From positions 1 through 64,000 of the forward strand of contig NZ_FPAT01000014.1 of assembly GCF_900116555.1 (NCBI RefSeq): DNA of 64,000 bases, read 5' to 3'. The translations under genes were made by a program, and so were the position numbers. The stretch comes from Actinopolyspora lacussalsi subsp. righensis. Its GTDB lineage: Bacteria; Actinomycetota; Actinomycetes; Mycobacteriales; Pseudonocardiaceae. Of this stretch, positions 1-14,971 are shown in pieces; position 1 is the first letter of the stretch; each line of letters opens with the position of its first letter. The notes under the pieces are model-generated. The model did no database searches and had not been told where the DNA came from. It was given only the letters and a program-made list of their open reading frames with translations.

Positions 1-36
1 GGGGTGCTGGTGAGGAAGGTGTCATGAGCCGTCATT
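1..36. repeat. Inverted copy of a resolvase 3' end (pairs with 2569-2604)
   Basis: Bases 1-36 match the reverse complement of 2569-2604 at 32 of 36 positions. The right-hand copy is the last codons and stop of the resolvase pseudogene at 2051-2583 plus about 25 bases beyond it. The left copy is therefore the tail of a second, related resolvase gene, here read on the minus strand with its stop at 22-24, of which only the last codons remain before similarity ends. The two copies face each other and enclose the DHFR-like and AraC genes. Confidence 0.75.
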
Positions 37-69
37 CGTTTCGGTTCGGGTGATCGGTAGCGTTCGCGC

Positions 70-544
70 ATGGTGTGGGAGGTGGATCAGGACGGGCTGG
101 TCGTGCACTGGACGCTGGTCGGTGACGATCTGGACCGGGTGGCGGGCAAGCGTGATGCGGCGAAGCTGGGTTTTGCCTTGTTGCTGAAGCTGGTGCAGTC
201 GTTGCGGTTCCGGTCGAACAACACCATGCACGCGCCGATCATCGACGGCGGCGAACTGGTGCGACGCTACGCCGACTCGAGTACGCAGACTTACCGCCGC
301 GGTGAGCAGGTGCCCATCCGGGGTGTGGTGGGTGGGGACTGGCTGGAACTGCTCTACTGAGGCGGCCTCCAGCCGGGTGCAGCGCAGCGTCTACGAGCTC
401 GCCGAGAACGAATGGGCGGGCCTGCTCAGCAGCGAGGACTACCGCGGGCTCACCCCGCTGATCTGGGCTCACGTAGCCATACACGGCGAATTCAAACTCA
501 ACATGAACAGCCGCCTCGACCTCGGTCAACGGCGCACACGATAG
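70..544 (+). pseudogene. Gutted Tn3-family transposase
   Basis: The first ~40 codons resemble the N-terminal DUF4158 region of Tn3-family transposases (WTLVGDDLDRVAGKRDAAKL, then FALLLKL). This is joined directly to a central piece (FRSNNTMHAPIIDGGELVRR), which in the fuller relative at 10100-11867 lies hundreds of residues downstream. After a stop at 358-360 the next frame carries the usual transposase end (GLTPLIWAHVAIHGEFKLNM). Both ends are thus kept, with large internal deletions and a frameshift, so no active enzyme can be made. The remnant runs into the 3' end of the convergent DHFR-like gene, so the terminal repeat expected after the transposase is lost. Confidence 0.75.
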
Positions 545-1107
545 CGCAGGTGAAGCACCCGGTTGCCCTGAATCACCACGTCAGGATCCTCCAACAGGTG
601 CTGTGTGTGGACCGACCCGAAGTAACGTTTGCCGGACCCGAGCACCACGGGTACGACGTCCATGCGTACTTCATCGATCAGACCCGCGGCAAGCACTTGG
701 CTACCGATGTCGCCAGCGGCGACCTCGACCACGCGGTCACCCGTGAGCTCCTGCGCCTTGGCCATGGCTGCCTCAATGCCATCGACGAAGTAGAACGGCG
801 CCTCGGGATACCAGCCCTCGGGTCTGCCCCGGTGGGTCACGACAACGACGTGGTCGACCCCAGCCGGAGGTGTCCCGTCCCAGCCGTTCGTCATGTCGAA
901 GACGTGGCGACCGACGATTGTCGCCCCGATCTGGTCCCAGTACGGCCGGATGTAGTCGTAGGATGTCTGCGACACCTTCAAGACGCCGCTCTCGTCCAAC
1001 GGCACGTCACCGCTGAGTAACCAGTCGAACAGCGGTCCGGGCTGGTCGTTCTCATCCGCTATGAAGCCGTCTACCGACACCGAGTTGTACATGACCACCT
1101 TGCCCAC
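526..1107 (-). CDS. Dihydrofolate reductase/RibD C-terminal family protein
   Basis: A 193-residue protein of the RibD_C/DHFR-like fold, opening with the family signature MYNSVSVDGFIADENDQPG. It has a central IVGRHVFDMTNGW segment and a C-terminal IDEVRMDVVPVVLGSGKRYF strand pair typical of these NADPH-binding reductases of unknown substrate. It is probably not the housekeeping folate enzyme. The GTG start at 1107 is chosen because GAGGAGG precedes it by five bases; an in-frame ATG lies five codons further in. It follows the AraC gene in the same orientation with a 65-bp gap, suggesting a regulator-target pair. A second member of the family is at 41181-41738. Its last codons overlap the transposase remnant. 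Confidence 0.85.
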   Translation of the reverse strand: MGKVVMYNSVSVDGFIADENDQPGPLFDWLLSGDVPLDESGVLKVSQTSYDYIRPYWDQIGATIVGRHVFDMTNGWDGTPPAGVDHVVVVTHRGRPEGWYPEAPFYFVDGIEAAMAKAQELTGDRVVEVAAGDIGSQVLAAGLIDEVRMDVVPVVLGSGKRYFGSVHTQHLLEDPDVVIQGNRVLHLRYRVRR

Positions 1108-1172
1108 GGGGCCTCCTCTACTCTGGGTGCCTCCAAGTTAAGCGTTTTGCGAGCTGTCGGTCTTGTAAGAAA

Positions 1173-2012
1173 TCAATCGGTCGGCAGCGGCCAGCTATCC
1201 AATACGTGGCCAGGATGTTCGCGCAGAAACCGCCGCCGAGCTTCGACGTACCGGGTCGGCGTGAGCCCGGTGAACGCCCGGAACTCGTGGCTGAAGTGGG
1301 CCTGGTCGTAGTAGCCTGCGCCACCGGCGAGGCCGCCCCAGTCGATCGGCCCGGCGGGGTTGATCGCGAACACGGCGGTGGCGAAGCGGTGAGTGCGGGC
1401 CAGCCGCTTCGGCGTGACGCCGATGAGCTCCTTGAACCGCTTTGCCAGATGAGTGTTGCTGGCACCGGTTGCCACGCTCAGGTCGCCGATCGCCACCGCC
1501 CCGCTGGTCGCCGCGATGACGCTGCTCGTATGGCGGACCAGCCCCAGGCCGGCGGTCTCGCACAGTCGTCGCATCAGCTCCTCCTCGAGCAGCGTCAGCA
1601 TCTCGCTCGCCCCGTCCGCCGTGCCCAGCCGGTCTCGCAGCTCAGCAATAGCGGGCTGGCCCCAAACCTGCTCTAACGTCACCGGCCGGTCGCAGAGCTC
1701 GGCCGCGGGCATCGGCAGGAACGGCGACAACCCCCACGGCTTGAAGTGCACACCGACGGACCGGGTCCAGAGCGGGTAGCCGAACTCCCACGCGCGGGTA
1801 GGCATGGTGACCACGCAACCGTCGGCGTACCCGGCCGTTTCGATCTGGGTGCCAGCACGGAGGAGAAACGGCGCTCCGAGGTTGACGATGAACAACGCCG
1901 CCGGCGTCGTCGGCAGCGTCAGCCGGGCGTACGGCGGCGCACCCTCCAGGTAGTAAAGGTCGTCGATCAGCCCATCCAGCGGCGGTCGCGGCGCTCTGGA
2001 CACGTACTCCAT
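1173..2012 (-). CDS. AraC-family transcriptional regulator
   Basis: A 279-residue protein with an N-terminal sensing domain of the DUF6597 kind (residues ~1-130) and a C-terminal double helix-turn-helix (~165-265). The second helix-turn-helix shows the AraC hallmark GYYDQAHFSHEFRAFTGLTP. It probably controls itself and the DHFR-like gene downstream on the same strand. The ATG at 2012 has no clear Shine-Dalgarno sequence, so translation may be leaderless or weak. The gene sits between two Tn3-type resolvase remnants and may be cargo of a lost transposon. Confidence 0.9.
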   Translation of the reverse strand: MEYVSRAPRPPLDGLIDDLYYLEGAPPYARLTLPTTPAALFIVNLGAPFLLRAGTQIETAGYADGCVVTMPTRAWEFGYPLWTRSVGVHFKPWGLSPFLPMPAAELCDRPVTLEQVWGQPAIAELRDRLGTADGASEMLTLLEEELMRRLCETAGLGLVRHTSSVIAATSGAVAIGDLSVATGASNTHLAKRFKELIGVTPKRLARTHRFATAVFAINPAGPIDWGGLAGGAGYYDQAHFSHEFRAFTGLTPTRYVEARRRFLREHPGHVLDSWPLPTD

Positions 2013-2050
2013 ACGTACAGTATCGACTATGCCCTGCCGGCCGGCGCGCC

Positions 2051-2583
2051 TTGATGGTCCAACCGCGCTGCCACCAACACCCTGAACTCGGCGTCGCCGA
2101 CGACCGGATCTACCTCGACCACGGACTCACCGGCACCAAGAGAACGCGGCCCGGGCTCGATCAGGCGCTGGCCACCGTCCGAACTGGCGACACCCTCGTG
2201 GTGCCCAAGCTCGATCGACTGGCCCGGTCGGTGTCGGACGCCCGCGCCATCGGCGACGACCTCGCCGAGCGCGGCGTCGCGCTGTCGCTGGGCGGACAGA
2301 TCTACGACCCGGCCGACCCCATGGGCAAGACATTCTTCAACATCCTGGCCACCTCGCCGAGTTCGAAGTCGACCTCCAACGCATGCGCACCCGCGAAGGC
2401 ATGGCCGTGGCGAAGGCGAAGGGCAAGCTGCGCGGCAAACAGCCCAAGCTCAGCGCCAAGCAGCAGACCGAGCTCTGTCGCATGCACAGCACCGAGAACT
2501 ACAGCATCAACGATCTCGCCGAGCTGTTCTCGATCGGCAGGGCCACCGTATACCGCGCCCTGCAGCGGAATGGCGGCTCATGA
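2051..2583 (+). pseudogene. Broken Tn3-type serine resolvase
   Basis: Resolvase sequence is recognisable from about 2084 (DDRIYLDHGLTGTKRTRPGL, then PKLDRLARSVSDARAIGDDL), but the catalytic N-terminal YxRxSTxxQ segment is missing. Near 2350 one base appears to be lost. The conserved LAEFEVDLQRMRTREGMAVA stretch and the C-terminal helix-turn-helix (YSINDLAELFSIGRATVYRA) continue in another frame to the stop at 2581-2583. With the active-site serine region gone and the frame broken, the product cannot be functional. A relative with an intact N-terminus but no C-terminus is at 15835. Confidence 0.85.
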
Positions 2584-2604
2584 CACGTTCCTTACCGGCA
2601 CCCC
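2569..2604. repeat. Right partner of the 1-36 inverted repeat
   Basis: Reverse-complement match to 1-36 (32 of 36 bases). It spans the last codons and stop of the resolvase remnant plus 21 bases beyond. Confidence 0.75.
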
Positions 2605-3008
2605 GACGAGTGACGCGTACACCCTCGGCCCGCGGGTCGATCGTGATCCGGTTTGCTGACCATTCGCAGTCCCGTCGCAGCGCTTCGATCACTACTTCGC
2701 GTTCCCTAGGGCACGACATCGATGAAGGATGTTCTATGAGCAGCCCGGCCTTTGCTCAGCGCGTAGGGGCGGAGGAATCATCTAGATTACTGGTCGTAGC
2801 TCGTCGTTGGACTGGTGTGGGCCCGGCGAATAGACAGGTGTCCCACACCATGGCGACCGTTCCTGGAGAAACATCGATTCCGTCGGCGCAGCCCGCATCG
2901 GCGGAGCCTCTCATCGACCGTGCCGTGCTCACCCTGACGTATCGACCGTACTGAACCGCTGCCAACGAGGTTGGAAGAGAAACCGGAGGCGATGGACGGT
3001 AGCGCGGG
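2605..3008. other. Intergenic junction, no gene recognised
   Basis: About 400 bases between the resolvase remnant and the dehydratase gene. Short open frames exist, but none has a ribosome site or recognisable family sequence. It marks the left edge of the A/T-richer island. No terminal inverted repeat was identified. Confidence 0.5.
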
Positions 3009-4688
3009 TCATTCTCGAAAGGAGGAGCCCTCCAAAGGTGTGGTTATGGCGCCGAGCGAAGCGCACGAAGCGGCACTGCCGTACTTTCCCAACACTCCGG
3101 TCGTGTAGCGGGGCGGAGGTGGATTCCAGCTTCGCGCTCTCGTTGCCAACTCCGATTCCGTCAACCGGACGGATAGTTCGCGTTGCACCAGGTCGATGGT
3201 GATCAAGTCGCCATCGACCAACATGGCGATCGGCCCTCCTACCGCGGCCTCCGGTGCCACGTGTCCGACCATGAGCCCACGAGTAGCCCCGGAGAAGCGT
3301 CCATCGGTCACCAATGCGACCGATTCGCCAAGTCCTCGGCCGACTAGAGCGGAGGTGACCCCGAGCATCTCGCGCATACCGGGGCCACCGCGAGGGCCTT
3401 CATATCGGATGACGATTACAGTTCCCGAACAGACCGCGCCTTCTTGTACCGCGAACATCGCATCCTCTTCGTTGTCGAACACGAGAGCGGATCCGGTAAA
3501 CTGCGGAGTGGATGTGGCCGAAACCTTTACCACCGCTCCTCGGGGAGCGAGATCGCCTTTGAGGATACGGATTCCGCCCGTCTCGTGAAAAGGCTGGTCA
3601 ACTGTTCGGACGACGGATTGTCCCGCTGCGGATCGCGCCCCGGAAACTTCCTCACCCAACGAACGGCCGGTCACGGTGAGCGCATTGTCGGCCAGTAGTC
3701 CCGCGTTATTCAACACACTCCCGACGAGACGTGTACCACCGGCTCGATCGAGATCAACAGCCGTATAGCTACCGCTGGGTCGAAGGTCAGCAATTACCGG
3801 AGTGCGTGTGCTGACATCGTCGAATTCCTCGATATCAAGCTCGATTCCCGCCTCACGTGCCAAGGCGAGAAGGTGCAGCACGAGATTGGTCGACCCGCCG
3901 GTCGCCACCGCACCAGTGATCGCGTTCCGGAACGAATCCTCGGTAAGAATTTTCCCGGGAACCAATCCGCCCCCGACCAACCGTGTCACGTGAGCCCCCG
4001 CGTTTTCGCACACTTCGACTTTGCGTGGATCATTCGCGGGTGGGTCCATCGATCCGAACGGGCTGAGCCCCATAAACTCCATGGCCATGGCCATCGTGTT
4101 GGCAGTGTAATTACCCGCGCACGCACCCTCACCAGGACATGCGGAACGCTCTAATTCATCGAGCGCGGTATCGTCCAGCTCGCCGCTCGCATTGCGTCCG
4201 ACCGCTTCGAAGACGTCTTGGAGCGTCACCTCCGTTCCACGAAAAGATCCAGGAAGCATCGTGCCCGAATAGATGATCGCACCAGGAATGTTGAGGCGGA
4301 TATGGGCCAAGGCCGCCGCGGGTATGGTCTTGTCACATCCGACGAGCGTAATCAGACCGTCCAGGGCGTGTCCCTTACCCACAAGTTCGATGGAGTCCGC
4401 GATTACCTCGCGGCTTACCAACGAGGTGCGCATACCCTCCGTGCCCATTGTGATGACGTCTGATATAGCCACAGTGTTGATCTCGACCGGAGTTCCCCCG
4501 GCGGTCCGCACCCCGGCCATCACGGACTCGGCGAGACGCCGATGGTTGAGGTTGCAAGGCATAGTTCCTATCCAACTGTGTGCCACCCCGATGACAGGCT
4601 TGGCGAAATCTTCCGTGGACAGGCCAGTGGCACGTAAAGCCGCGCGTGCCGGGGCGCGGCCGGACCCTTCCAGGAACGAGTTCATCAT
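3009..4688 (-). CDS. Dihydroxyacid dehydratase (SalH-like, proposed aldonate dehydratase)
   Basis: A 559-residue member of the IlvD/Edd dehydratase family. The three [2Fe-2S] cysteines are visible: Cys45 in MPCN, Cys119 in GCDKT and Cys190 in [12 protein letters not shown]. The ATG at 4688 is preferred because GAGGAA lies eight bases upstream; the frame stays open 46 codons further but without a ribosome site. Housekeeping IlvD works in valine/isoleucine synthesis, but this gene sits in an island with a nucleoside phosphorylase, APRT, dehydrogenase, phosphoesterase and cyclase. That is the context of salinosporamide SalH, which dehydrates a 5-halo-ribonate to a 2-keto-3-deoxy acid. The proposed substrate here is a 5-substituted 5-deoxyribonate. 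The GAC-AGN variant in place of the common GAC-GGM also fits divergence from IlvD. Family is certain, substrate is inferred. Confidence 0.85.
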
Positions 4689-4948
4689 CGGCGATTCCTC
4701 GGTTCGTTGTTGCTCTCCGCTGCGGAACCCAGACATCGGACGAGCAGGGTGGCGGCGGAGCTGTTCAGCTCTCACGCTACTCAAACAGAACCACCAGGAA
4801 CAGGGCAAAATCAAGAAGTGCACCATAGATGCATGAAGCTACCCTGTTAGTCGTACATACCTTTTCTCCTTTCGGTTATCAACGCGAAAACAAATCGAAT
4901 GATACTATCCTCGTTGCAGGTGCACAAAGATAGTCGGAGGTAATGGAA
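4689..4948. promoter_or_regulatory. Divergent promoter region of the dehydratase and phosphorylase genes
   Basis: A 260-bp A/T-rich spacer separates the two divergent start codons and must contain both promoters. A -10-like TACTAT lies near 4903-4908, reading toward the phosphorylase. No convincing -35 or operator was identified. GGAGG at 4936-4940 is the phosphorylase ribosome site. Confidence 0.5.
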
Positions 4949-5836
4949 ATGTCATCCACGCCGAAATCGGAAGAAATACAGATCGGCATCATAGGAGGCA
5001 GTGGTCTCTACGATTTCGAAGCACTTACCGATGTTCGACGTGTCCACACGAGCACTCCGTACGGCGACCCGAGCGACTCCTTGGTCATTGGAAGCCTGGA
5101 AGGTGTTCGAGTAGCATTCATTCCTCGTCACGGTCGAAATCATCAGATTACACCAACAAATATCCCTTCGCGTGCTAACATTTATGCGCTCAAGAGCCTG
5201 GGTGCCAGGGCCGTAGTTGGTGTCAGTGCGGTGGGAAGTCTGCGAGAGGACTTCGCTCCGGGAGATCTGGTCATTCCTGATCAAATTGTTGACCGATCCC
5301 GAGGACACCGTGCCGACACGTTCTTCGAAGGGAACACCGTGGTCCACGTTCCGTTCGGTGAACCGTTCTGCGGTACGATCCGCCCCAGCTTGATCGAGGC
5401 AGCACGCAGCCGTATTTCGGCAAACGTACACAAAACGGGAACTTACTGCTGCATAGAGGGACCACAGTTCTCGACTCGAGCAGAGTCCGAACTGTATCGG
5501 GCATGGGGAATGGACGTAATCGGCATGACAGCTCTACCGGAGGCGAAACTGGCTCGCGAGGCGGAACTTTGTTACACGGGGATCGCATTGGTAACCGATT
5601 ACGACTGCTGGCGCGCCGGCCACGAGGATGTGAGTGCGGATGAAGTCGCGGAAGTCATGAAATCGAATACCGCAGCGGCCAAGGAAACCCTGCTCGGTCT
5701 GCTGAAAGATTTCGATGTCGATACCCGGTGTTCTTGCCAGTATTCTTTGTCCACATCCATCATAACACCGATCGATACCTTGCGGTCATCCGTGAGTCGT
5801 CACGACGATTGGCTCGTTCGTAAATACGTTCCCTAA
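4949..5836 (+). CDS. 5'-deoxy-5'-methylthioadenosine phosphorylase family (MTAP/FlB/SalT-type)
   Basis: A 295-residue trimeric-type purine nucleoside phosphorylase. Landmarks: IGGSGLY at 15-21, phosphate-site PRHGR at 59-63, VSAVGSLRE at 92-100, CIEGPQFSTRAES at 168-180, DVIGMT at 189-194 and TDYDCW at 216-221. The Asp-x-Asp in TDYDCW is the 6-aminopurine (adenine) type, as in MTAP rather than inosine/guanosine phosphorylase. The reaction expected is adenine release from a 5'-substituted 5'-deoxyadenosine to give the ribose-1-phosphate. The start at 4949 is chosen over an ATG at 4943 because GGAGG ends eight bases before 4949 but only two before 4943. Residues 261-263 form a Cys-x-Cys pair like that of some thermophile MTAPs. 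It begins the proposed pathway of the island. The A/T content is unlike the rest of the window (26 G/C in 5101-5160). Confidence 0.9.
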   Translation: MSSTPKSEEIQIGIIGGSGLYDFEALTDVRRVHTSTPYGDPSDSLVIGSLEGVRVAFIPRHGRNHQITPTNIPSRANIYALKSLGARAVVGVSAVGSLREDFAPGDLVIPDQIVDRSRGHRADTFFEGNTVVHVPFGEPFCGTIRPSLIEAARSRISANVHKTGTYCCIEGPQFSTRAESELYRAWGMDVIGMTALPEAKLAREAELCYTGIALVTDYDCWRAGHEDVSADEVAEVMKSNTAAAKETLLGLLKDFDVDTRCSCQYSLSTSIITPIDTLRSSVSRHDDWLVRKYVP

Positions 5837-6507
5837 CCGGGCTTTGTTGGGTTGGGAAGCCGTTGTTGGTGATCGGGTTGTCAACCGATTGGTGGGGTTG
5901 AACGCGAGTGGATCGGGCGCCGGTCTGGAGGGCCAGGAGATCTTACGACCGAGGCCCAGCCGGTTGCACTCGCAGGCTTACCCCACCTCGGCAGTTACCG
6001 GTCTTTCTCGGTACCCGCAGCACATCCGCGCATCACCGGGCCAATCGCCATTCTCCTCGACAGGCCTCGTCTCATCCGGGCCGTCTCAATGAGACGGTAT
6101 CGTGTCCGACCGGACGAGCGGTGCGTCGCGTTCCAACATGGGTAGGAACACCATGCTGGTGCGATCGCAGGTGGAAGTATCTCATGGGGCCCGTTCGATG
6201 TGCTGCTGGTCAGCCGGACCGCGGTACAGTGCCTGCACTCCTACCTCGCTCCAACTCGGCACGGCTCGTGCTGATGGAGCACACGTACTTTGACAATCAG
6301 ATCATGACGAAGCCGGCCCGCTTCGCGAATGGTGGCGTACCCGCTGCCGCCCCAGGTTCTCAGCAGCCTCCGTAGACTCCAGTTCGAACTTCTGTCGAGC
6401 ACCACAGTACCGAGTCGTGATGCTCGACTCCCCTGAATACCTGTCAACGCGAGGTGTTTCCCACACTCCGCGAATGCTGTCGGTGGGTACCGTCCCGACT
6501 TCGGAAG
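5837..6507. other. Long non-coding gap inside the island, one hairpin
   Basis: About 670 bases between the convergent ends of the phosphorylase and APRT genes, much longer than other gaps in the island. No frame on either strand resembles a known family. A hairpin with a 7-bp stem (CCGTCTC/GAGACGG, loop AAT) lies at 6081-6097 and might end transcription. The stretch could be the footprint of a lost gene, but nothing recognisable remains. Confidence 0.5.
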
Positions 6508-7035
6508 TCAAACAACCGAGAAAACCGGTGTCGGAGACAAGCGCTCCGCGCCGTCCAGCCCCTCAATCGTCGCAGCTACGGCATATCCGGCGACTTTCGC
6601 TCCGCCGGTGACAACCAACTCTCCTGCTGCTGAGAGCGTTCCTCCTGTCGCGAGGAGATCGTCCACCACCAGCACTTGATCACCTTGCTTGAGAGTGCCC
6701 TGTTGCACTTCCAGTGTCGCCGTTCCGTACTCCAGACTGTAATCCGCCCTGTGCACTTCCCCGGGAAGCTTTCCCTTCTTTCGCGCCAACGCCAGCGGGC
6801 GCCCCCCGACGGCCGACACCGCTGTTCCGAGGATGAAACCACGAGCCTCTACGGCGAGCACGCGGTCAAATTTTCCGTCGAAAGCACTGATGAACGACTC
6901 GGCCAGACGATTTACGGTTTCAGGGTTTTGAAATACGGGAGTTAGATCCTGAAACAGGATGCCCTGTTTCGGAAAATCCGGAAAAACCCTGATTTGCTCT
7001 TCGAGTTCTTTTTTGAGGCCAAAGTCAACAGTCAT
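6508..7035 (-). CDS. apt: Adenine phosphoribosyltransferase
   Basis: A 175-residue type I phosphoribosyltransferase matching APRT along its length: FPDFPKQGILFQDLTP at 18-33, VEARGFILG at 62-70 and the PRPP-binding loop VLVVDDLLATGGTL at 121-134. It converts adenine and PRPP to AMP. In this island it would recapture the adenine freed by the neighbouring phosphorylase, which suggests a substantial flux through an adenosyl compound. It shares its orientation with the dehydrogenase gene 56 bp upstream and probably its transcript. Genomes of this group normally have another apt near relA; whether this is a second copy cannot be seen here. Confidence 0.95.
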   Translation of the reverse strand: MTVDFGLKKELEEQIRVFPDFPKQGILFQDLTPVFQNPETVNRLAESFISAFDGKFDRVLAVEARGFILGTAVSAVGGRPLALARKKGKLPGEVHRADYSLEYGTATLEVQQGTLKQGDQVLVVDDLLATGGTLSAAGELVVTGGAKVAGYAVAATIEGLDGAERLSPTPVFSVV

Positions 7036-7091
7036 GGTATTCCTTTGCGGTAAAATTTTCCGAGTGATTGAACGAGTCTACTACACGCAAA

Positions 7092-7865
7092 TCATTGCGC
7101 CAGATAACCACCATCTACCGGCAGTACGGCTCCCGTGATGAAAGAAGCTTCATCTGAAGCCAGAAAACTGATAGCGGCGGATACTTCTTCAGGGGAACCG
7201 AGACGGCCGATCGGATGTCGCTGTTCGATTTCGGAAAGGTATTCCGAACCGCCGGGCTCATGAGGAAGACGATCAACGCGTTCGGTCTTGATGGTTCCGG
7301 GAGCGACCGCGTTGACTCGAATTCCGTGCTTGGCCCATTCCACAGCCAAGTGCATTGTCAATCCTGATGCCACGAATTTGGCCGGCCCGTATGTGCTCTG
7401 CCCGTCCTGACCGGCCAATCCGGAAATGGACGACAGGCACACGATAGAACCGCTATGCGTCGACAACATAGCTTCAATGGCGTACTTGCACGTCAGAAAC
7501 ATGCCACGGCCGTCGACGGCCATCACTTGATCCCAGTCTTCGACAGTCGCATCGGTGATTCTGGTCAACGGCAGTACCCCCGCGTTCGCGACCAGAACGT
7601 CCAACCTGCCATAGCTGTTCTTCGCTCGGTCGATCATGCGCCGAGCATCCGACGGATCAGCGACATCGCCTGTGATTGTGTGCACATCTGACCCGGACGA
7701 GGCCAATCGTTGTCCCAGCTCCTGCAGTGCCGGAGTGTCGACATCACTGAGTACGAGACGGGCACCTTCACGGGCGAACCGTTCAGCGGTCGCCTTGCCG
7801 ATGCCATGAGCACTTCCGGTGATAACGCAAGATTTTCCCGCTAACCGCTCCGGTATGTCGTTCAT
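7092..7865 (-). CDS. Short-chain dehydrogenase/reductase (SalM/FdrC-like, proposed 5-deoxyribose dehydrogenase)
   Basis: A 257-residue classical SDR. The cofactor motif TGSAHGIG is at 16-23, an acidic Asp41 at the end of the second strand favours NAD+, NAG is at 94-96, and the catalytic Ser146, Tyr159 and Lys163 (YGPAK) are all present. SalM in salinosporamide synthesis and FdrC in Streptomyces sp. MA37 are SDRs that oxidise the 5-halo-5-deoxyribose to its lactone. The neighbourhood makes the same job likely here, with the substituent unknown. GAGGAC precedes the ATG at 7865. A generic SDR function cannot be excluded from sequence alone. Confidence 0.85.
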   Translation of the reverse strand: MNDIPERLAGKSCVITGSAHGIGKATAERFAREGARLVLSDVDTPALQELGQRLASSGSDVHTITGDVADPSDARRMIDRAKNSYGRLDVLVANAGVLPLTRITDATVEDWDQVMAVDGRGMFLTCKYAIEAMLSTHSGSIVCLSSISGLAGQDGQSTYGPAKFVASGLTMHLAVEWAKHGIRVNAVAPGTIKTERVDRLPHEPGGSEYLSEIEQRHPIGRLGSPEEVSAAISFLASDEASFITGAVLPVDGGYLAQ

Positions 7866-8128
7866 GATTTGTCCTCGACAAACAAGGAGAAGACCGTGGC
7901 CAAGGCCTGCGATGCTACTCCACGGTGTGAGATTTATTTAAATCCTCGATCAATATAAGTCGCAGCTTCCAGCTCCGCCAGTGACACGAGAAACAAAAGA
8001 AGTACACAATTGGTCCCATGCGGTGTACCACTCGCGGAACAGATGCGATCCCCTAGTGGCCGATGTGCGGCACGGATCAGTCGGGAAAAATAGACGTACA
8101 CAACAACCGCCTCTCTCGAGGAGTATCC
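7866..8128. promoter_or_regulatory. Divergent promoter region with a 14-bp palindrome
   Basis: Separates the dehydrogenase (minus) and phosphoesterase (plus) genes. It contains an uninterrupted palindrome GATTTATTTAAATC at 7931-7944 in an A/T-rich stretch, a good candidate operator for co-regulating both arms of the island. No regulator gene lies inside the island; the nearest is the AraC gene at 1173-2012. Confidence 0.5.
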
Positions 8129-8923
8129 GTGATCACTCTTTACTGCGGCGATATAGTCGGGGATCAGGCGACCAATCGGCTTGCTGAAAGCTTGCCCGAT
8201 CTGCGACGTAAGCACGGGGTAGACCTAGTGGTAGCCAATGCCGAAAACAGTGCTCCGAACGGCCTGGGGATGGGTACGAAACAGGTGGAGCAACTATTGG
8301 ATGCCGGAGTTGACGTAATCACCGGCGGAAACCACTCCTGGGACAGCGAGGAATCGATCGAGTCACTCAGCCTACCTCAGGTAATACGTCCAGAGAATCT
8401 GAGTGACGGGGTCCCCGGGCGAGGTTATGTACATCTCGAAGTCGGTGATGAAACGGTCACCGTGATCAACTTGGCCGATCACTGCGCCTTGAAGAACGTG
8501 GAAGCCGCTGCGGGTAGGTTCCTTCCGGCCTACGAAGGATGGAAGACGGCTCAGAAGAAGGGGGAAGTGATAGTCGACTATCACGGTGATCATGTGTTGG
8601 AGAAACAGATATTCGCCCATGCGGTCGATGGTTCTGCCACAGCGGTATTCGGCAGTCATACGCATGAGGCGACCATGCCGCTGCACGTGTTGCCCAGCGG
8701 TACGGCCTTCGTTACCGATGTCGGAATGACAGGTCCGGATCACGGTGTTCAAGGTTTCGATCCGGAAAATCTTGTATCCAACCTGAAAAGCACCGGAGAT
8801 GCTTTTTCCGGACCGTTGCCACCGGTTCGCGTGGGTCCGATTGTGCTGGGGGCCGTGTTGCTGGAAACTCATCAAGGACGAACAGTACGACTGGAGCGAA
8901 TTTCCTGGAACGAGGTGAACTGA
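8129..8923 (+). CDS. YmdB/TIGR00282-family metallophosphoesterase (proposed 5-deoxyribose-1-phosphate phosphatase)
   Basis: A 264-residue protein with all the dinuclear metal motifs of the YmdB family: GDIVG at 7-11, NAEN at 37-40, GGNHSWD at 66-72, DYHGD at 150-154, GSHTHE at 175-180 and TDVGMTGP at 196-203. Most relatives have DFHAE at the fourth motif. The GTG at 8129 is preferred, with GAGGAG ending five bases before it; the frame extends 22 codons upstream without a ribosome site. Known relatives hydrolyse phosphodiesters such as 2',3'-cAMP. The gene abuts the cyclase gene and belongs to a nucleoside-sugar island, so it is proposed to remove phosphate from the sugar-1-phosphate, the step done by SalN in salinosporamide synthesis. 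Confidence 0.85.
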   Translation: MITLYCGDIVGDQATNRLAESLPDLRRKHGVDLVVANAENSAPNGLGMGTKQVEQLLDAGVDVITGGNHSWDSEESIESLSLPQVIRPENLSDGVPGRGYVHLEVGDETVTVINLADHCALKNVEAAAGRFLPAYEGWKTAQKKGEVIVDYHGDHVLEKQIFAHAVDGSATAVFGSHTHEATMPLHVLPSGTAFVTDVGMTGPDHGVQGFDPENLVSNLKSTGDAFSGPLPPVRVGPIVLGAVLLETHQGRTVRLERISWNEVN

Positions 8924-8925
8924 AA

Positions 8926-9774
8926 ATGAGTGAAATTCTAGGGGAGCGTGACTCGGAAATCTCGCGAAGCACGCGAAATGTCGAAGTTGTTGATCTGTCC
9001 CTGCAACTGTCCGAAAACCTTCCGTGTGATTGGTCCCTGCATCAGCCTTTCCAGCACAAGGTCTGGAATTGGTTCGCCACTCGTGATGAGCAGGTAGGGC
9101 CAATTTACAACCGGAGTGGTGTGCCGTACGCCACCTCTTGGATGGCAATTGATGAGCACACCGGTACTCACTTCGACGCTCCGAGCCACTTCGTTCCTCC
9201 GCCCGGTTCCGGAGTACCGGGTTCCGCGCCAGCCGGAGAAATTTCCGCGGAGAAAGTCGAAATTTCCCAGTTGATGGGAAGCGCCAGCGTGCTCGACCTC
9301 TCTTTCCTTACCGATCAGGACGGAGAAGCGGGAGTAAGTCCTTTTATTCGCCCTGAGCACATCACTGCTTGGGAGGATTCCCACGGAACCCTGAACCCAG
9401 AAAGTGTCGTTCTGTTCCGAACAGGTTGGGACCGCTTCTTCCAGCCAAAACCCCAGGGGAGCGCTTACCTGTACGACGTGATCGTGACGGGAAAAAGCCC
9501 TGGCTGGCCCGCTCCTGATGTTCCGACGATGGAACTACTGATCGAACGCGGAGTCCGGTGTGTCGGTACCGACGCGCCATCCATGGGAGCCGCGCATGAC
9601 GGTGTGCCGGTTCACGTGCGCGGTTTGAGTGAGGGAATGCTGTACGTAGAGTGCCTTACCGGACTCGAAAAGCTCTCCCCGAAGGGGGATTGGTTTTGTT
9701 TCCTTCCGCTCAAGGTCGAAGGTGGCACCGGAGCACCGGGGCGTGCTGTCGCATTACGCCAACTGGACCGGTAG
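8926..9774 (+). CDS. PF04199 cyclase/kynurenine formamidase-like hydrolase (proposed aldonolactonase)
   Basis: A 282-residue metal-dependent hydrolase carrying the family signature HTGTHFDAPSH at 78-88, which provides the metal ligands His78, His82 and Asp84. Members include kynurenine formamidase and isatin hydrolase, which open amide or lactam bonds; hydrolysis of a lactone is chemically equivalent. It starts three bases after the phosphoesterase stop, so the two are co-transcribed and probably translationally coupled. In the proposed pathway it opens the 5-deoxyribonolactone made by the dehydrogenase. The assignment to the family is firm; the lactonase role is an inference from position. 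Confidence 0.8.
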   Translation: MSEILGERDSEISRSTRNVEVVDLSLQLSENLPCDWSLHQPFQHKVWNWFATRDEQVGPIYNRSGVPYATSWMAIDEHTGTHFDAPSHFVPPPGSGVPGSAPAGEISAEKVEISQLMGSASVLDLSFLTDQDGEAGVSPFIRPEHITAWEDSHGTLNPESVVLFRTGWDRFFQPKPQGSAYLYDVIVTGKSPGWPAPDVPTMELLIERGVRCVGTDAPSMGAAHDGVPVHVRGLSEGMLYVECLTGLEKLSPKGDWFCFLPLKVEGGTGAPGRAVALRQLDR

Positions 9775-9951: not shown

Positions 9952-10098
9952 GTGCCCATCGGGATGCCCGCGGATTTCGAGTCCAGCCTGGACGTGCACT
10001 ACGCCGAGCTGCGCCAGCCGCTGGATCCCAGTGAGTTCATCACCGACCTGCGTACCCGCATGAACAAGGCCTTGCAGCGGTGCGATGCCGCTCTGCCA
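9952..10098 (+). pseudogene. Short Tn3-transposase fragment, plus strand
   Basis: About 45 codons (MPADFESSLDVHYAELRQPL, then FITDLRTRMNKALQRCDAAL) match an internal part of Tn3-family transposases. They align with LPADFESTRDVHYEALRKPR encoded on the opposite strand at about 10310-10430. The two copies differ at many residues, so they come from different elements rather than a fresh duplication. The fragment breaks off near 10098 where the minus-strand transposase begins. Confidence 0.7.
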
Positions 10099-10099
10099 C

Positions 10100-11867
10100 C
10101 GAGGAGAATTTCATTGGTGAACTCGGTGAGGAAGTCGGCGTCTTTGAGTACATCGAGCAGATCCCTCGTGCCCCAGCGACGGATCACCTCGTGCTCGACC
10201 TTAGTCAGGGTACGCGGCTCCGGCAGCGGGTCGAGTTTGGGCACCGTGATCCACGGTTCGCCGCGCCGCCGCGTGATCCGCACTCCACCAGCCGTGCTGT
10301 TGGCCAGGGTGGTGTCGCAGCGGTCCAGCGCCGTGGTCATGCGCTGCTTGAGGTCGGCGATGAAGGTCTCGGTCTCGCGAGGTTTGCGCAGCGCCTCGTA
10401 GTGCACGTCGCGGGTGGATTCGAAGTCAGCCGGCAGGTGGTCCTCGGGATTGCTCCACCGGTTTTCGCCGGCCACGTACGCCTCACGGCGCCGCAGCACT
10501 TCCCGCAGGGACACCAGCACGCACAGCTCGTAAGGGATGCGCTCGATGCGACCGCGCTCGTCGATGACCGCCTCACGCCAAGCTTTCGGCACCACCCCCT
10601 CGATGGACACCGTCTCGCCGGCGTCGTAGAACCGGATCTTGCCGTCGACCTCGCGGTAGCGGCCCAGCAGCTCCAAAGCCTGCATGATCGGCCGGTAGGT
10701 GGTGTCGTTGCACCGAAACTCCAGCGCGGCCAACAACACTGGCAGCATCCACCGGTAGTGGTTCGAATACGACCCCGCGCAGCACCGTGCGCACCCGGCG
10801 GCACAGGAACGCCTGCTCGGTGCTCTTGGCCTGGGTTACCAGTTCCTGCAGGGTCTTATCGCTGACGATCGGATACAGCGCGGTGTGCACCTGCTCGCTC
10901 CAGCGCCGTCTCGGCCAGCCGAAACAAGATGCCCTCCTTGCCCCCGCCCCCGGCGCAGATCCTCGGGGAACTCGCGCTTCACACGTCGTTCGGCACGGGT
11001 GTTGACCTTGTACACCAGGATGATCAACAGATCCACCAGCGCATCGATGATCTCGCTTTGACGTATCCAGCACAACGCAGCAAGAAGCGTCAAACGAACC
11101 TCGCGGGGGCGCTATCCCGCAGGTCGGACGGGTACGAGCGCATCGCCCGCGCCCGCCAGGCAGCCACCAGCTTCTCGAAGAGTCGGCGAACAGCCCGCTC
11201 GGCGGCCCCAGCTGGCGCACCGCCGTCAGCTTGTCGACCTCGACCAGCACCGTCTCCAACCCGACCTGACCAGGATCGGCCTTCAACTCCGCCAACAGAC
11301 CCCGCCCCGCGGAGTCGTACTCGGCGACCAAGGTCTCCAGTACGGCCACACTCGTCCCCGATAGACGCTCGACAGTGCGGAGGAAAAGCCGCTGCTCGAA
11401 CGTCGAACAGGCCGAACCGATGAGGCGGTCCAACACGCCCAGGTGGCTCGATCCCCTCGGCCCGACACCGCGCCAACGCCACCTGCCGCAGCCGGTCCTC
11501 ACGCAGCTCGACCGGGCAAACCTCCTCGGCCAACCACCCAGCCAGCTTGTCCTCATCACCCCGAGAGAACTCACGAAAGCTGAACGCGGCCCGAATCTGC
11601 GCTCGATGATCTTTGATCGAGCGGGGCCGGCACGAGTAGCACCCCGGACTCCTTCGCATCCACGCCGACCTGCTCGGCGACGTAGCCAACCGCCTGCGGC
11701 GGCACCTCCTCGTCATACCGCGGGAACCGCGCCTCGATCTCGAAGAACTTCAGCAACAATGCGAAGCCGGGTCGGGTCGACACGGACTTGTTGCCCACCA
11801 AGCGCCACTCGTCACCAACCAGCGTCCACGACCCCACCAGCTCTTCCGAAGCCCACTCGCGCTGCAC
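10100..11867 (-). pseudogene. Decayed Tn3-family transposase lacking its C-terminus
   Basis: Reading leftward from about 11867, the N-terminal DUF4158 domain is clear (WASEELVGSWTLVGDEWRLV, then FALLLKFFEIEARFPRYDEE). It continues in at least three different frames (FREFSRGDEDKLAGWLAEEV; LRELLREVTEH-like regions are absent; IRQSEIIDALVDLLIILVYK; FRCNDTTYRPIMQALELLGR). The last readable part ends with LTEFTNEI near 10105. The C-terminal part with the final catalytic acid and the terminal repeat are gone. Several frameshifts make it inactive. Confidence 0.8.
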
Positions 11868-11943: not shown

Positions 11944-12030
11944 TACAGGGCCGAGAAGTGAGCCTGGCACTAGAATGATGAATATTCGTCACCGTGACTT
12001 TATTGTCCCGTAGAGTTTCACCTTCATTTG

Positions 12031-13305
12031 TCAGTCCTCTTCGGCCTCATCCGGTTCCGTCGTGGGGTCCGTGACCTCGGTGGTCGATTGCAGGGTGGTG
12101 GCGACGAGATCGGCGGCACTGCGCTCGGGGTGGCGGGCCGCGTGGTTGTAGACGCTCTGGGTGGTGGCGATGCTGGTGTGGCCGAGATCGGCCTGGACAT
12201 CGGCGAGGGCGGCGCCGGATTCGACGGCGGTGGTGACGTAGAAGTGGCGCAGCGCGTGAGGGTGGAGCGCTTCGGCGATCTCGCGCAGTTCGGGGCTGGT
12301 TCCCGCCAGTCTGCGCAGCAGCTGCCACAGCCCCTGGCGGGTGCACCGACGGCCGCTGCGAGTACTGATCAGAGGTTGGGGACCGGAGCTGGTCTGGCCG
12401 CGTGGGGCTGGACGGTTGTTCTGCTGGGTGGCGTCGCGGGTGTGCAGGTAGTCGGTCAGGGTGGTCTCGACGCTCTCGGGTAGGTAGACGATGCGGGGTT
12501 TGTCGCCCTTGCCGGGGACGCGCAGCGCGCGGCGACCGCGTGTGGTGTGCAGGTCGGAGCGGTTGAGAGCACACATCTCGCTGACGCGCAGCCCCAGGGT
12601 CAGCAGGGCGATCACGGTTGTGGCACGGGCGGTGTCCTGTGGGGAGGCACCGCGTCGAGGAGCGGCCGCGGCGGTGTAGAGAGCGCGCACCTGCTCCACG
12701 GTGAGGTTCAGCGCGTGACCGGTCTCGCGGTTTCCGGAAAGCCCGAGGCGGCGACGGTTGAGCGCTGCCGGGTTACCGCTGGTCAAACCGGTCTCGGCGA
12801 GGTGGGCGTAGAGGGCTTTGAGAGTGGCGAGCATGCGTTCGCGTGTGGTGCGGGCCGCCTCGGCGGTGGCCAGTTCGTCCAGCCAGGCTTTGACGTGGGC
12901 ACTGTGGGCGGACAGGGGATCGATCCGGTGAGCGGCGCACCACCGCAGCCAGTGCAGCTCGCGCAGTTTTCCCGGAGCCGCGGGCGGAGGGCGTCGGGTG
13001 GTCCTCGCCGGAGTCGGTGTCCGCGGGTCGAGGCCGAGGACGGCAGCATAGGCATCCACCGTGGCGCCCCAACCGGGCGGACCTGATTCCGCGGCGGCCC
13101 AGTCGGCCAGCTCCTCGGGCCCCGCGGGCAAGCCGAGGCCGGTGGCGTAGGTGCGGCGGGTGGCGGCATTGCCGTAACCGGCCAGCCAGTCGGCGATGGC
13201 GGCCAGCAGTCGCACCGGTTGTTCGGCGCCGGGCCACGGCTCATGGGGGTGCCCAGTTTTCGGCGTCCTCGACGCGGCTCGCTCCAGCGGGCTGTTCTTA
13301 GTCAT
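12031..13305 (-). CDS. Tyrosine recombinase (TnpS-like)
   Basis: A 424-residue phage-integrase-family recombinase. The catalytic set is complete: Arg240 (GLRVSEMC), Lys266 (PGKGDK), His350 and Arg353 (HALRHFY), His376 (LGHTSI) and the nucleophile Tyr386 (SVYNHA). A SAM-like core-binding domain occupies roughly residues 110-180. The ATG at 13305 follows AAAGGTG at a good distance; the frame runs 41 codons further up through the A/T-rich spacer and is rejected. It is divergent from a coiled-coil gene and next to Tn3-transposase remains. Tn4651-type Tn3 elements have the same layout (tnpS, rst site, tnpT) and use it to resolve cointegrates. A plain XerC-like or integron-type role is the alternative. 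Confidence 0.85.
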   Translation of the reverse strand: MTKNSPLERAASRTPKTGHPHEPWPGAEQPVRLLAAIADWLAGYGNAATRRTYATGLGLPAGPEELADWAAAESGPPGWGATVDAYAAVLGLDPRTPTPARTTRRPPPAAPGKLRELHWLRWCAAHRIDPLSAHSAHVKAWLDELATAEAARTTRERMLATLKALYAHLAETGLTSGNPAALNRRRLGLSGNRETGHALNLTVEQVRALYTAAAAPRRGASPQDTARATTVIALLTLGLRVSEMCALNRSDLHTTRGRRALRVPGKGDKPRIVYLPESVETTLTDYLHTRDATQQNNRPAPRGQTSSGPQPLISTRSGRRCTRQGLWQLLRRLAGTSPELREIAEALHPHALRHFYVTTAVESGAALADVQADLGHTSIATTQSVYNHAARHPERSAADLVATTLQSTTEVTDPTTEPDEAEED

Positions 13306-13376
13306 TTTCACCTTTCGAATCCTCCTGCGGCACGTCCCATCCAGGTTAGCAACAAAACAACACTTTCGTAGCAAAG

Positions 13377-13400
13377 TTGGTTTTATATAATTAAAACCAA
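13377..13400. other. Candidate recombination core (rst-like) between the divergent genes
   Basis: TTGGTTTTA (13377-13385) and TAAAACCAA (13392-13400) are perfect inverted 9-mers around the six bases TATAAT (13386-13391). Tyrosine recombinases act on two such arms about a 6-8 base crossover region. The flanks carry a direct repeat, AAAGTTGG at 13373-13380 and AAAGTTGC at 13405-13412. The whole 140-bp spacer (13306-13445) is strikingly A/T rich and must also contain both promoters. Confidence 0.6.
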
Positions 13401-13445
13401 AACTAAAGTTGCGATATGTATAATACAAAACTAGGCTGATGGGTC

Positions 13446-14594
13446 ATGGAAACCGCCACCGACGACACGGCCCCGCAGGGCCGGTGCAAGCTGGCTGCCT
13501 GCCGCGCCTCACTGCCTCCCGCCGGCCCGCGCGGTGGTCGACCTCCCGAGTACTGCCCGGACCGCACCTGGCCCGGCGGAAAGACCTGCAAACAACTCGC
13601 CGCCGCCCAATCCGCCCTGCACGAGGCTTTCGGCGATGCCCCCGGTGCCACATTGGACAGCGCGGCCGGTGACTTCGCCCGAGCCGCCGACGCCGTCGTC
13701 GTTCCACTGTCCGAGCTGCACACTGCCCTGGAACAAGTACGCGGCCAGGTCACCGAGGAACTGACCACCGCCGCGGCGACCGCCACCGGCGCTCGCGCCG
13801 AAGCCGCCGAAGCCCGCGAGACAACCCGAATCGCGGAGAACGCTCGTACCGAGGCCGAACAGGCCCAAGCACTCGCCGAGCAAGCCCGATCCGAGGCCGA
13901 AACCGCCGCGACCGAAGCCCGCGGGGAAGCCGAGCAAGCCCGATCCGAGGCCGAGCAGGCCCGTTCGGAACGAGCCGCCGCCATCGACGCACAGCACCGA
14001 GCCGAAACCCAGGCCGCCGCGCACGAAGCCACCGCGACAGCCGCCACCGACCGCGCCACCACGGCCGAGGAACGAGCCGCGACCGCGACCGCCGAGCTGA
14101 CCCAGGCGCGCGAACGCATCGCCGCTCTGGAAGCCGAACGCGACGCGTTGCGGTCCACGCTGGAGACCGAACGTCGAACGCACGAGGCCAACGAGGCAGA
14201 CCTCCGACAAGCCCGCGACACCGCCCAGACGGCCGCCCAGGCCGCCGAGACCCGCGTCGAACAGGCCCAAACCCACCTCGACCAGGCCCTGACCCGCGCG
14301 GACAACGCCGAGACCCGCGTCGAACAGGCCGAATCCCAGCTCGCCCACGTCCACCAGCGAGCCACCGACGCCGCTGCCGACGCCGCCACCGCCCGGGCAG
14401 GTGCCGAGACCGTCACCAGTGAACTGACCCAGGCCAGGGCGCGACTACGGAACCTGCACGAGATCCTTCTCGAACCGCACGAGACCGACGAGCATCTCCG
14501 GAACCGTCTGCTCGCGTCCCTGCTCCACGAACCGGTCGAGCAGCCGCCGGCCTCTGATGAGAACAGCGCACCTCCGACCGGGGGCACACCATGA
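13446..14594 (+). CDS. Cys-rich N-terminal, long coiled-coil protein (TnpT/KfrA-like)
   Basis: A 382-residue protein. Residues ~12-50 hold four cysteines (GRCKLAAC, EYCPD, KTCKQ) in an arrangement suggesting a small zinc or DNA-binding module with an Arg/Pro-rich loop. From ~75 to ~355 it is an almost unbroken Ala/Glu/Gln/Arg coiled coil with repeats such as EQARSEAE. Such proteins occur as plasmid KfrA and as TnpT, the helper that binds the rst site beside the TnpS recombinase. The divergent recombinase and shared spacer favour the TnpT role. The ATG at 13446 lacks a strong ribosome site. The A/E/R repeats make the DNA itself look repetitive at 13830-13990. Confidence 0.7.
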   Translation: METATDDTAPQGRCKLAACRASLPPAGPRGGRPPEYCPDRTWPGGKTCKQLAAAQSALHEAFGDAPGATLDSAAGDFARAADAVVVPLSELHTALEQVRGQVTEELTTAAATATGARAEAAEARETTRIAENARTEAEQAQALAEQARSEAETAATEARGEAEQARSEAEQARSERAAAIDAQHRAETQAAAHEATATAATDRATTAEERAATATAELTQARERIAALEAERDALRSTLETERRTHEANEADLRQARDTAQTAAQAAETRVEQAQTHLDQALTRADNAETRVEQAESQLAHVHQRATDAAADAATARAGAETVTSELTQARARLRNLHEILLEPHETDEHLRNRLLASLLHEPVEQPPASDENSAPPTGGTP

Positions 14595-14752
14595 GCGCCC
14601 ACGGTCATTCCACCCGCTGATCACAGGTCGTTAGCGCGGCATCCGTGGCGGCGAAGTTCTCCGGTTCCTACGTCGGGCCGCAGGTTAGGGACTGCTCGAT
14701 CGTGGTGTGCGCCGGTGTGTTCGGCGCCGACGGGGCGTTAGCCTGTCGAGGT

Positions 14753-14971
14753 ATGCGTCGGATCGCGGTCGTCGGGAGTGGTGGGGCGAGGAAAACGACG
14801 TTCGCCCGTGAACTCGGGCGTCGTACGGGGATCGCTGTGGTCAACCTCGACGAGTTCTACTGGCGCCCCGGCTGGCGCCGTCCCGACCGCGAGTCCACCC
14901 TTGTGCTCAGGCTCGGGTTTCCCGTGATCGGCGTGGCCGACATGGATCGCGCTGTCAACTTCTGGACGTAA
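14753..14971 (+). pseudogene. Chimeric remnant: P-loop kinase head joined to VOC-domain head
   Basis: From the ATG at 14753 the first ~47 residues match the start of FlaR/adenylate-kinase-like P-loop proteins (RRIAVVGSGGARKTTFAREL, then VVNLDEFYWRPGWRRP). The phosphate loop has Ala-Arg where Gly-Lys is usual. This is then fused to the opening of a glyoxalase/VOC protein (LGFPVIGVADMDRAVNFW), which stops immediately. Two unrelated gene starts have been joined by a deletion, leaving nothing likely to work. Confidence 0.7.

Follow-up and report, generated by a model that had tools for sequence, protein, structure and literature searches.

The window analysed here comprises the 64,000 bases from base 1 of contig C13 (bases 1-64000) in the genome of Actinopolyspora lacussalsi subsp. 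righensis, an assembly of 22 contigs that is 99.94% complete. Near its left end lies an island of six genes, coding for a dihydroxyacid dehydratase (DHAD), a methylthioadenosine phosphorylase (MTAP)-type enzyme, an adenine phosphoribosyltransferase (APRT), a short-chain dehydrogenase/reductase (SDR), a YmdB-type metallophosphoesterase and a PF04199 cyclase-fold hydrolase (Table 1). A preliminary description of the window had named these six genes as an oxidative 5-deoxyribose pathway resembling the sal and fdr clusters, without a halogenase. All six were found again as open reading frames (ORFs) with Pfam and curated family profile matches. The divergent arrangement that it described was also seen, both for the DHAD/MTAP pair and for the SDR-APRT/YmdB-cyclase pair. 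Its base counts in support of an A/T-rich island, 26 of 60 G/C at 5101-5160 and 39 of 60 at 40021-40080, were exact when recounted, and a scan of the window gave a GC content of 0.573 for the island and at least 0.662 for every equal-length stretch to its right. In our interpretation, the six genes very probably supply the sugar steps of a SalL-type chlorinase cluster; this cluster would have arrived in a single insertion, since disrupted by Tn3-family elements and contig ends.

Table 1. Features of the island and of the rest of the window (positions on contig C13).
Feature	Position	Strand	Match or remark
Tn3-family element reduced to its ends	1-2604		left inverted repeat 1-37, right inverted repeat 2568-2604
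tnpA start	70-357		weak DUF4158 match, E 0.0008, below cut-off
RibD-like cargo gene of the Tn3-family element	526-1107	-
AraC cargo gene of the Tn3-family element	1173-2012	-
Resolvase ORF	2051-2659		Resolvase PF00239
SalH/FdrB-like DHAD, P0001	3009-4688	-	IlvD/EDD; PF00920/PF24877
MTAP-type phosphorylase (SalT/FlB role)	4943-5836	+	TDYDC; TIGR01694 321.8 bits, cut-off 274.85
APRT, predicted adenine recycling	6508-7035	-	NF002636 188.6, cut-off 125
SalM/FdrC-like SDR, proposed 5-halo-5-deoxyribose dehydrogenase	7092-7865	-
YmdB/TIGR00282-type metallophosphoesterase (SalN/FdrA role)	8063-8923	+	PF13277
PF04199 cyclase-fold hydrolase (SalO/FdrD role), candidate lactonase	8926-9774	+	PF04199 94.3 bits
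Tn3-family transposase relic behind the cassette	9999-10748	-	NF033527 E 2.8e-34, model positions 373-577 of 954; no Pfam match
First chromosomal block right of the insertion	11982-14894		96.7% identical to G397:C1:1005227-1008139, reversed
DUF62-type SAM hydrolase, outside the island	56534-57358	-	only SAM_HAT protein of the window; unrelated region

The phosphorylase, phosphoesterase, SDR and DHAD that mark a sal/fdr-type pathway are encoded together in the island. The DHAD was 61-65% identical to the dehydratases of six halogenase-bearing genomes; its ORF extends to 4826, and by eye an ATG near 4688 suits the homologues better. In the seven other cassette loci described below, identities were 61-74% for the SDR (seven of seven), 52-65% for the phosphoesterase (seven of seven), 56-62% for the cyclase (six of seven) and 47-59% for the APRT (four loci, with 44% in L011). 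The phosphoesterase scored 178.9 on TIGR00282, under the cut-off of 254.15, which places it in a divergent subfamily. The closest PDB relatives of the cyclase were isatin hydrolases.

The statement that the island lacks a halogenase held for the 64-kb window but not for the genome. An S-adenosylmethionine (SAM) halogenase, P0007, was found on contig C22, out of sight of the preliminary description because the window starts at base 1 of C13. P0007 matched PDB entry 7ccg with 443 bits and SalL (2q6i) with 344 bits, compared to 177-180 bits for fluorinases and at most 94 bits for hydrolase-type entries. On the TIGR04507 fluorinase model it scored 175.1 bits against a cut-off of 400, and is thus not a fluorinase. 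Its alignment showed a WYGKD motif and neither the fluorinase loop nor the RNAA motif, which is the fluorinase criterion in an excerpt of PMC12871659. Compared with the His-Arg-Asp triad of DUF62 hydrolases (excerpt of PMC10491745), P0007 has Tyr in the Asp column and YGKD in place of HGRD, which sets it apart from these hydrolases. By these comparisons P0007 is a SalL-type chlorinase, with chloride as the presumed halide. The substituent of the sugar, for which halogen, S-methyl and H had all been considered, is now more likely to be chlorine. The best match, 7ccg, carries the chain label RNA polymerase subunit delta, which may be a mistake in the entry.

The cassette and the chlorinase appear connected through a repeat and through a related genome. 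An identical stretch of 399 bases (100%) was present at C13:1-399, C22:1-399 and C19:8623-9021, with no other full copy in the genome. It forms the left terminus of an element of the Tn3 family with 37-base inverted repeats, a resolvase and Tn3 transposase fragments; the two repeats of the C13 element are 89% identical. In G397, which belongs to the same species and is assembled in one contig, no match to YmdB reached E ≤ 1e-50 and none to the halogenase exceeded 31%. The block of G397 that matches C13 from 11982 ends at 1008139, and the block that matches C22 from 9890 starts at 1009800 in the opposite direction. The flanks of the two contigs face each other there, 1.66 kb apart, and the interval holds one SDR gene, a 92% copy of which lies inverted inside C22 (1013-1911). 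Because both ends face each other at this one site, the cassette and the chlorinase are most simply read as two halves of one insertion. Contig C19 appears to be joined to C22 by a 5-base target duplication of the Tn3 type, since TTGTC stands directly before the left repeat in C19 and recurs right after the right repeat in C22. The three island pieces had GC contents of 0.576, 0.579 and 0.559, compared to 0.683 and 0.654. The contigs are unjoined, and the placement of the halogenase in the same cluster as the cassette rests on the synteny with G397, the shared repeat and the target duplication.

Related cassettes were sought with an alignment of the island YmdB protein and one relative, run against the genomes of named species. 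This confirmed 432 relatives, of which the best 80 loci were kept; sets without YmdB would be missed. Each of the five best loci had three to six of the cassette genes, 44-74% identical, in a span of about 11.5 kb. All six were present in Amycolatopsis bartoniae and in Solihabitans fulvus; the locus of Streptomyces sp. sk2.1 contained SDR, DHAD, YmdB and cyclase together with a 44% APRT that is perhaps a housekeeping copy, and that of a Streptosporangiales metagenome-assembled genome contained SDR, DHAD and YmdB. Only one of the 70 weaker loci (L018-L087), many of them short contigs and hence an imperfect control, had other members of the six families at E ≤ 1e-6 (MTAP 37%, APRT 40%). A search of 390 genomes from the host's family gave 14 others in which YmdB had a match at E ≤ 1e-50. 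Of the 11 whose neighbourhoods were examined, G481 and G593 had all six genes, eight had YmdB alone or with a distant SDR only, and G508 was A. bartoniae again, with an identical fluorinase. The distribution suggests that the six-gene set is a real unit, occurring more than chance would give.

A SAM halogenase was present in every one of the eight cassette genomes, and in six of them it lay within the same locus or contig. The co-occurrence with a fluorinase or chlorinase-type enzyme across genomes that the preliminary description had raised was therefore found in eight of eight, in line with its proposal that phosphorylase, phosphoesterase, dehydrogenase and dehydratase act on a 5-substituted deoxyribose. 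Fluorinases, 77-88% alike and with insertion loop and RNAA, were found at L009, L010, L012 and L108; chlorinase-type enzymes were found in the own genome, at L008 (Streptomyces sp. MUM 2J) and at L138, a contig of sk2.1 other than that of its cassette. In G593 the SAM halogenase (L137:7963-8916, L110) shared 46-51% identity with chlorinase-type enzymes, and its contig also carried MetK and the complete six-gene cassette. A chlorinase-type search of a 296-genome phylum sample and of 61 relatives, both including the own genome, gave only the own enzyme above 39% at E ≤ 1e-30; as fluorinases are about 37% identical to the query, these searches do not exclude fluorinases. In eight congeners searched, halogenase-family matches reached only 31-34%, in two genomes.

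The locus of MUM 2J (L008:5169-8381) was of the chlorinase type and gave no MTAP or DHAD match; another phosphorylase, of the PNP family, and an amidohydrolase stood there instead. This pair suggests deamination before phosphorolysis.

The third piece of the island, contig C19, is 9,021 bases long with a GC content of 0.56-0.61 except in the first kilobase. It encodes TetR/ScbR-like, RidA, IlvE-like, LeuB, LeuC, LeuA and LeuD proteins, and C22 also carries two SDRs and a methyltransferase. LeuA, LeuB, LeuC and LeuD all scored above the cut-offs of their families (NF002991, 674 against 455; TIGR00169, 427 against 353; NF004016, 752 against 510; NF002458, 239 against 167). In sk2.1, LeuA (67%) and LeuD (59%) follow the cyclase of the cassette, and the chlorinase contig holds LeuC (72%), LeuB (64%), an SDR (55%) and MTAP (53%); by eye it also holds MetF and a MetK whose frame is seemingly cut short. 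A normal LeuA carries a C-terminal regulatory domain. By Pfam, the LeuA proteins of both genomes have only catalytic and post-catalytic domains, and the match of the C19 protein to the solved enzyme 1sr9 ends at residue 490 of 644; neither comparison detected a regulatory domain in the C19 LeuA.

From the genes present we infer the following reactions, their order and the halide. The chlorinase would convert SAM and chloride to 5'-chloro-5'-deoxyadenosine, which MTAP would split into 5-chloro-5-deoxyribose-1-phosphate and adenine, the latter recycled by APRT. The YmdB-type phosphoesterase would release 5-chlororibose and the SDR would oxidize this to 5-chlororibonolactone, which would be opened to 5-chlororibonate by the SDR itself and/or by the PF04199 hydrolase. 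The DHAD would then form 5-chloro-4-hydroxy-2-oxopentanoate. At this point the preliminary description had placed an aldolase split; no aldolase was recognized in the three island pieces (no genome-wide search was made), and a LeuABCD-type module is present instead. Its sugar chemistry is right in outline; its ending finds no support. LeuA, LeuC, LeuD and LeuB of C19 could add one CH2 to give 6-chloro-5-hydroxy-2-oxohexanoate, which the IlvE-like enzyme would perhaps aminate to 6-chloro-5-hydroxynorleucine, while RidA would remove stray imines and the two SDRs and the methyltransferase of C22 would tailor the product. Extension, amination and oxidation at C5 are suggested by carbon counting. 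The SDR of G593 has as its neighbour a gene similar to 2-oxopent-4-enoate hydratase (237.6 bits against a cut-off of 408.8, E 1.5e-70); as an enzyme type for that carbon skeleton, it would fit the proposed DHAD product. That the end product is 6-chloro-5-hydroxynorleucine, perhaps oxidized by an SDR of C22 to 6-chloro-5-oxonorleucine, is a tentative proposal that may well prove wrong. An excerpt of PMC12844806 describes the latter compound as a synthetic analogue of glutamine, used to inactivate GlmS by alkylating its essential cysteine.

The comparison with the sal and fdr clusters was made by roles; only SalL, from the PDB, was aligned, and the other identities were measured against homologues in halogenase-bearing genomes. 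According to excerpts of PMC5947533, the sal cluster of Salinispora tropica, which makes salinosporamide A, shares with the present one the SalL-type chlorinase, the roles of phosphorylase, phosphoesterase, SDR, DHAD and cyclase, and a LuxR-type regulator. In contrast, no polyketide or SalQ gene was recognized here, and LeuABCD, IlvE-like, RidA and methyltransferase genes were found instead. The fdr cluster of Streptomyces sp. MA37, in the same excerpts, has FdrA phosphoesterase, FdrB DHAD, FdrC SDR and FdrD cyclase counterparts and likewise lies on a scaffold other than that of its halogenase. It differs in that MA37 has a fluorinase and that the reported end is 5-FHPA or possibly a dehydrated product (excerpts of PMC5947533 and PMC7408626), and its epimerase-like fdrF and ABC fdrG genes were not recognized in the own island. 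In these two sources FdrA is a predicted phosphoesterase, FdrB a predicted dehydratase and FdrD a cyclase, and deletion of fdrA or fdrB reduced 5-FHPA.

The fluorinase clusters of A. bartoniae, S. fulvus, the Streptosporangiales genome and G481 share DHAD, SDR and YmdB with the present cluster in four of four cases, and cyclase, MTAP and APRT in three. They differ in having a fluorinase with loop and RNAA and no LeuA-LeuD homologue in the loci examined; MetK-, SahH-, CPA2- and PfkB-like genes, named by eye and placed by tblastn, occur in three of the four. Those at L108 (G481), L009 and L010 combine these genes with a full sugar cassette and are candidates for new fluorometabolites. Leucine-type extension of 2-oxo acids, as in HphA-type systems and methylthioalkylmalate synthases, also recruits a LeuA-type condensation, an isomerase and a dehydrogenase for special metabolites in the literature excerpts seen, whereas the proposed substrate here is a chlorinated oxo acid. 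The dihydroxyacetone phosphate (DHAP) shunt and 5-deoxyribose salvage (excerpts of PMC6079011 and PMC10986504) also handle 5'-deoxynucleosides or 5-deoxyribose, but the DrdAIK kinase, isomerase and class II aldolase are absent among the six island genes, the only ones examined for this.

Several observations weigh against a chlorinase cluster extended by Leu enzymes. The contigs leave gaps: no assembled sequence spans C13 to C19 or C22, C19 is linked by the element through its right end, and no duplication partner was found for GACGA at the C13 element. Other points concern gene content. No MetK was seen in the own island pieces, the MUM 2J locus has only three of the six genes (SDR, YmdB, cyclase), and the G593 assembly shows 8% contamination. 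As no LeuA-LeuD homologue was found in the stretches of about 20 kb examined for the four fluorinase loci, L008 and G593, the extension module is known from two of eight genomes. The IlvE-like protein stays below its closest cut-off (248.3 against 279). The DHAD passes the IlvD equivalog TIGR00110 (635.3, cut-off 618.15); a special, non-IlvD role is still likely, if unproved, because the genome has four further IlvD/EDD loci, the best of them 50% identical to the island DHAD. The SDR need not be specific for a halide, because FdrC, which oxidizes 5-fluororibose with NAD+ and hydrolyses the lactone, oxidizes D-ribose about equally (excerpt of PMC5947533).

This breadth of the fdr dehydrogenase would also suit a cassette that acts as stand-alone salvage of 5'-deoxyadenosine or methylthioadenosine beside an unrelated chlorinase. 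The same holds for the absence of YmdB from the eight congeners searched, as expected for an accessory salvage trait, and for the phosphorylase: because the rest of the genome gave no good MTAP match, only a partial one of 33%, the island enzyme may also serve methylthioadenosine salvage. Pure salvage nevertheless seems quite improbable, given that all eight cassette genomes have a SAM halogenase, that G616, G709 and G710, with a YmdB relative and no cassette in the 20-kb locus, gave no halogenase match above 31%, and that the own cassette and chlorinase appear to share an insertion site and a similarly low GC content. Routing of the chlorinated oxo acid to chloroethylmalonyl-CoA for a polyketide, in the manner of salinosporamide, would be in keeping with the early enzyme roles shared with the sal cluster; inspection of the island stretches by eye revealed no polyketide gene and none like SalQ or CCR (no genome-wide search was made), and we give this outcome as little credence as pure salvage.

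Somewhat less remote, and still unlikely, is that the chlorinase and the cassette belong together and that the Leu genes are a separate passenger making leucine precursors only. The six cassette genomes without Leu homologues in the examined stretches would agree with this, as would a link between C19 and C22 that consists of a 5-base duplication and a shared repeat and not of continuous assembly. It accords poorly with sk2.1, where the four Leu homologues are split between cassette locus and chlorinase contig, and with the domain content of LeuA in both genomes. About equally doubtful, in our view, is the reading that the island has decayed and lost its function. It is interrupted by two Tn3-family elements and the relic of a transposase, and such transposon insertions could have shut the cluster down; the SDR gene of the G397 site is inverted and cut in C22. 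In contrast, the frames of cassette, chlorinase (its start being provisional) and Leu genes are open and span their family models end to end except at the LeuA C-terminus. We therefore retain the chlorinase cluster entered as one insertion as the preferred reading.

The preliminary description had named a finding that would speak against its pathway: unrelated surroundings for the best homologues of the dehydratase, the SDR and the cyclase. More distant relatives of the SDR (57%, on a Komagataeibacter plasmid) and of the cyclase (54%, in a sugar-acid region of a Rubrobacter plasmid) do lie elsewhere, but the closest among those found belong to halogenase-bearing genomes. These two were the best matches in a search of 72,556 plasmid records, which gave four SDR records at E ≤ 1e-50 and 146 matching cyclase records (15 listed). 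The best YmdB match was 40% among 35 matching records (15 listed), and the best chlorinase match was 34%, with three records at E ≤ 1e-30. Plasmid-borne copies of the cassette were rejected, as the five plasmid neighbourhoods examined were other systems.

PF04199 proteins were also seen at L004:13980-18449 and L007:9962-14416 amid sugar-acid genes (SDR, UxaA or altronate dehydratase, DHDPS-type aldolase), neighbourhoods that fit a role as sugar lactonase. On Thermus plasmids, TIGR00282 phosphoesterases (L005:12001-12801 and L006:12001-12771) adjoin carbohydrate ABC transporter genes, and the one on pVV8 also lies downstream of an operon for C-P lyase; sugar phosphates may be the substrates of this subfamily. 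In Rubrobacter taiwanensis (G026), a YmdB relative of 52-55% lies behind sugar ABC transporter genes (L003:9389-10177, on the same contig as L013), and the L003 locus has neither the cassette nor a chlorinase-type enzyme. Within the window, the SAM_HAT protein at 56534-57358 was considered as the missing halogenase and rejected as a hydrolase type, with best PDB matches to 2zbu (133.8 bits) and 2cw5 (123.5 bits), 113 bits to SalL, and the VDPG..R and FHGRD motifs retained. A fluorinase remnant was likewise rejected, as tblastn of the window with a fluorinase gave chance matches only (best E 1.0).

We know of few pathways that open with a SAM-dependent chlorinase, and the most familiar of them leads to a polyketide. 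Among the open-access papers listed, judged by titles, abstract starts and a few passages and with subscription papers mostly outside the set, there was no report of a chlorinase cluster combined with a leucine-type extension. The same opening steps followed by such an extension in two actinomycete genera predict a chlorinated amino or oxo acid that can be searched for. If 6-chloro-5-oxonorleucine is indeed the product, bacteria would make a natural chloromethyl-ketone glutamine analogue by a new route. In the eight genomes found, the cassette never occurred without a SAM halogenase, and it could therefore serve as a probe for new halogenases.

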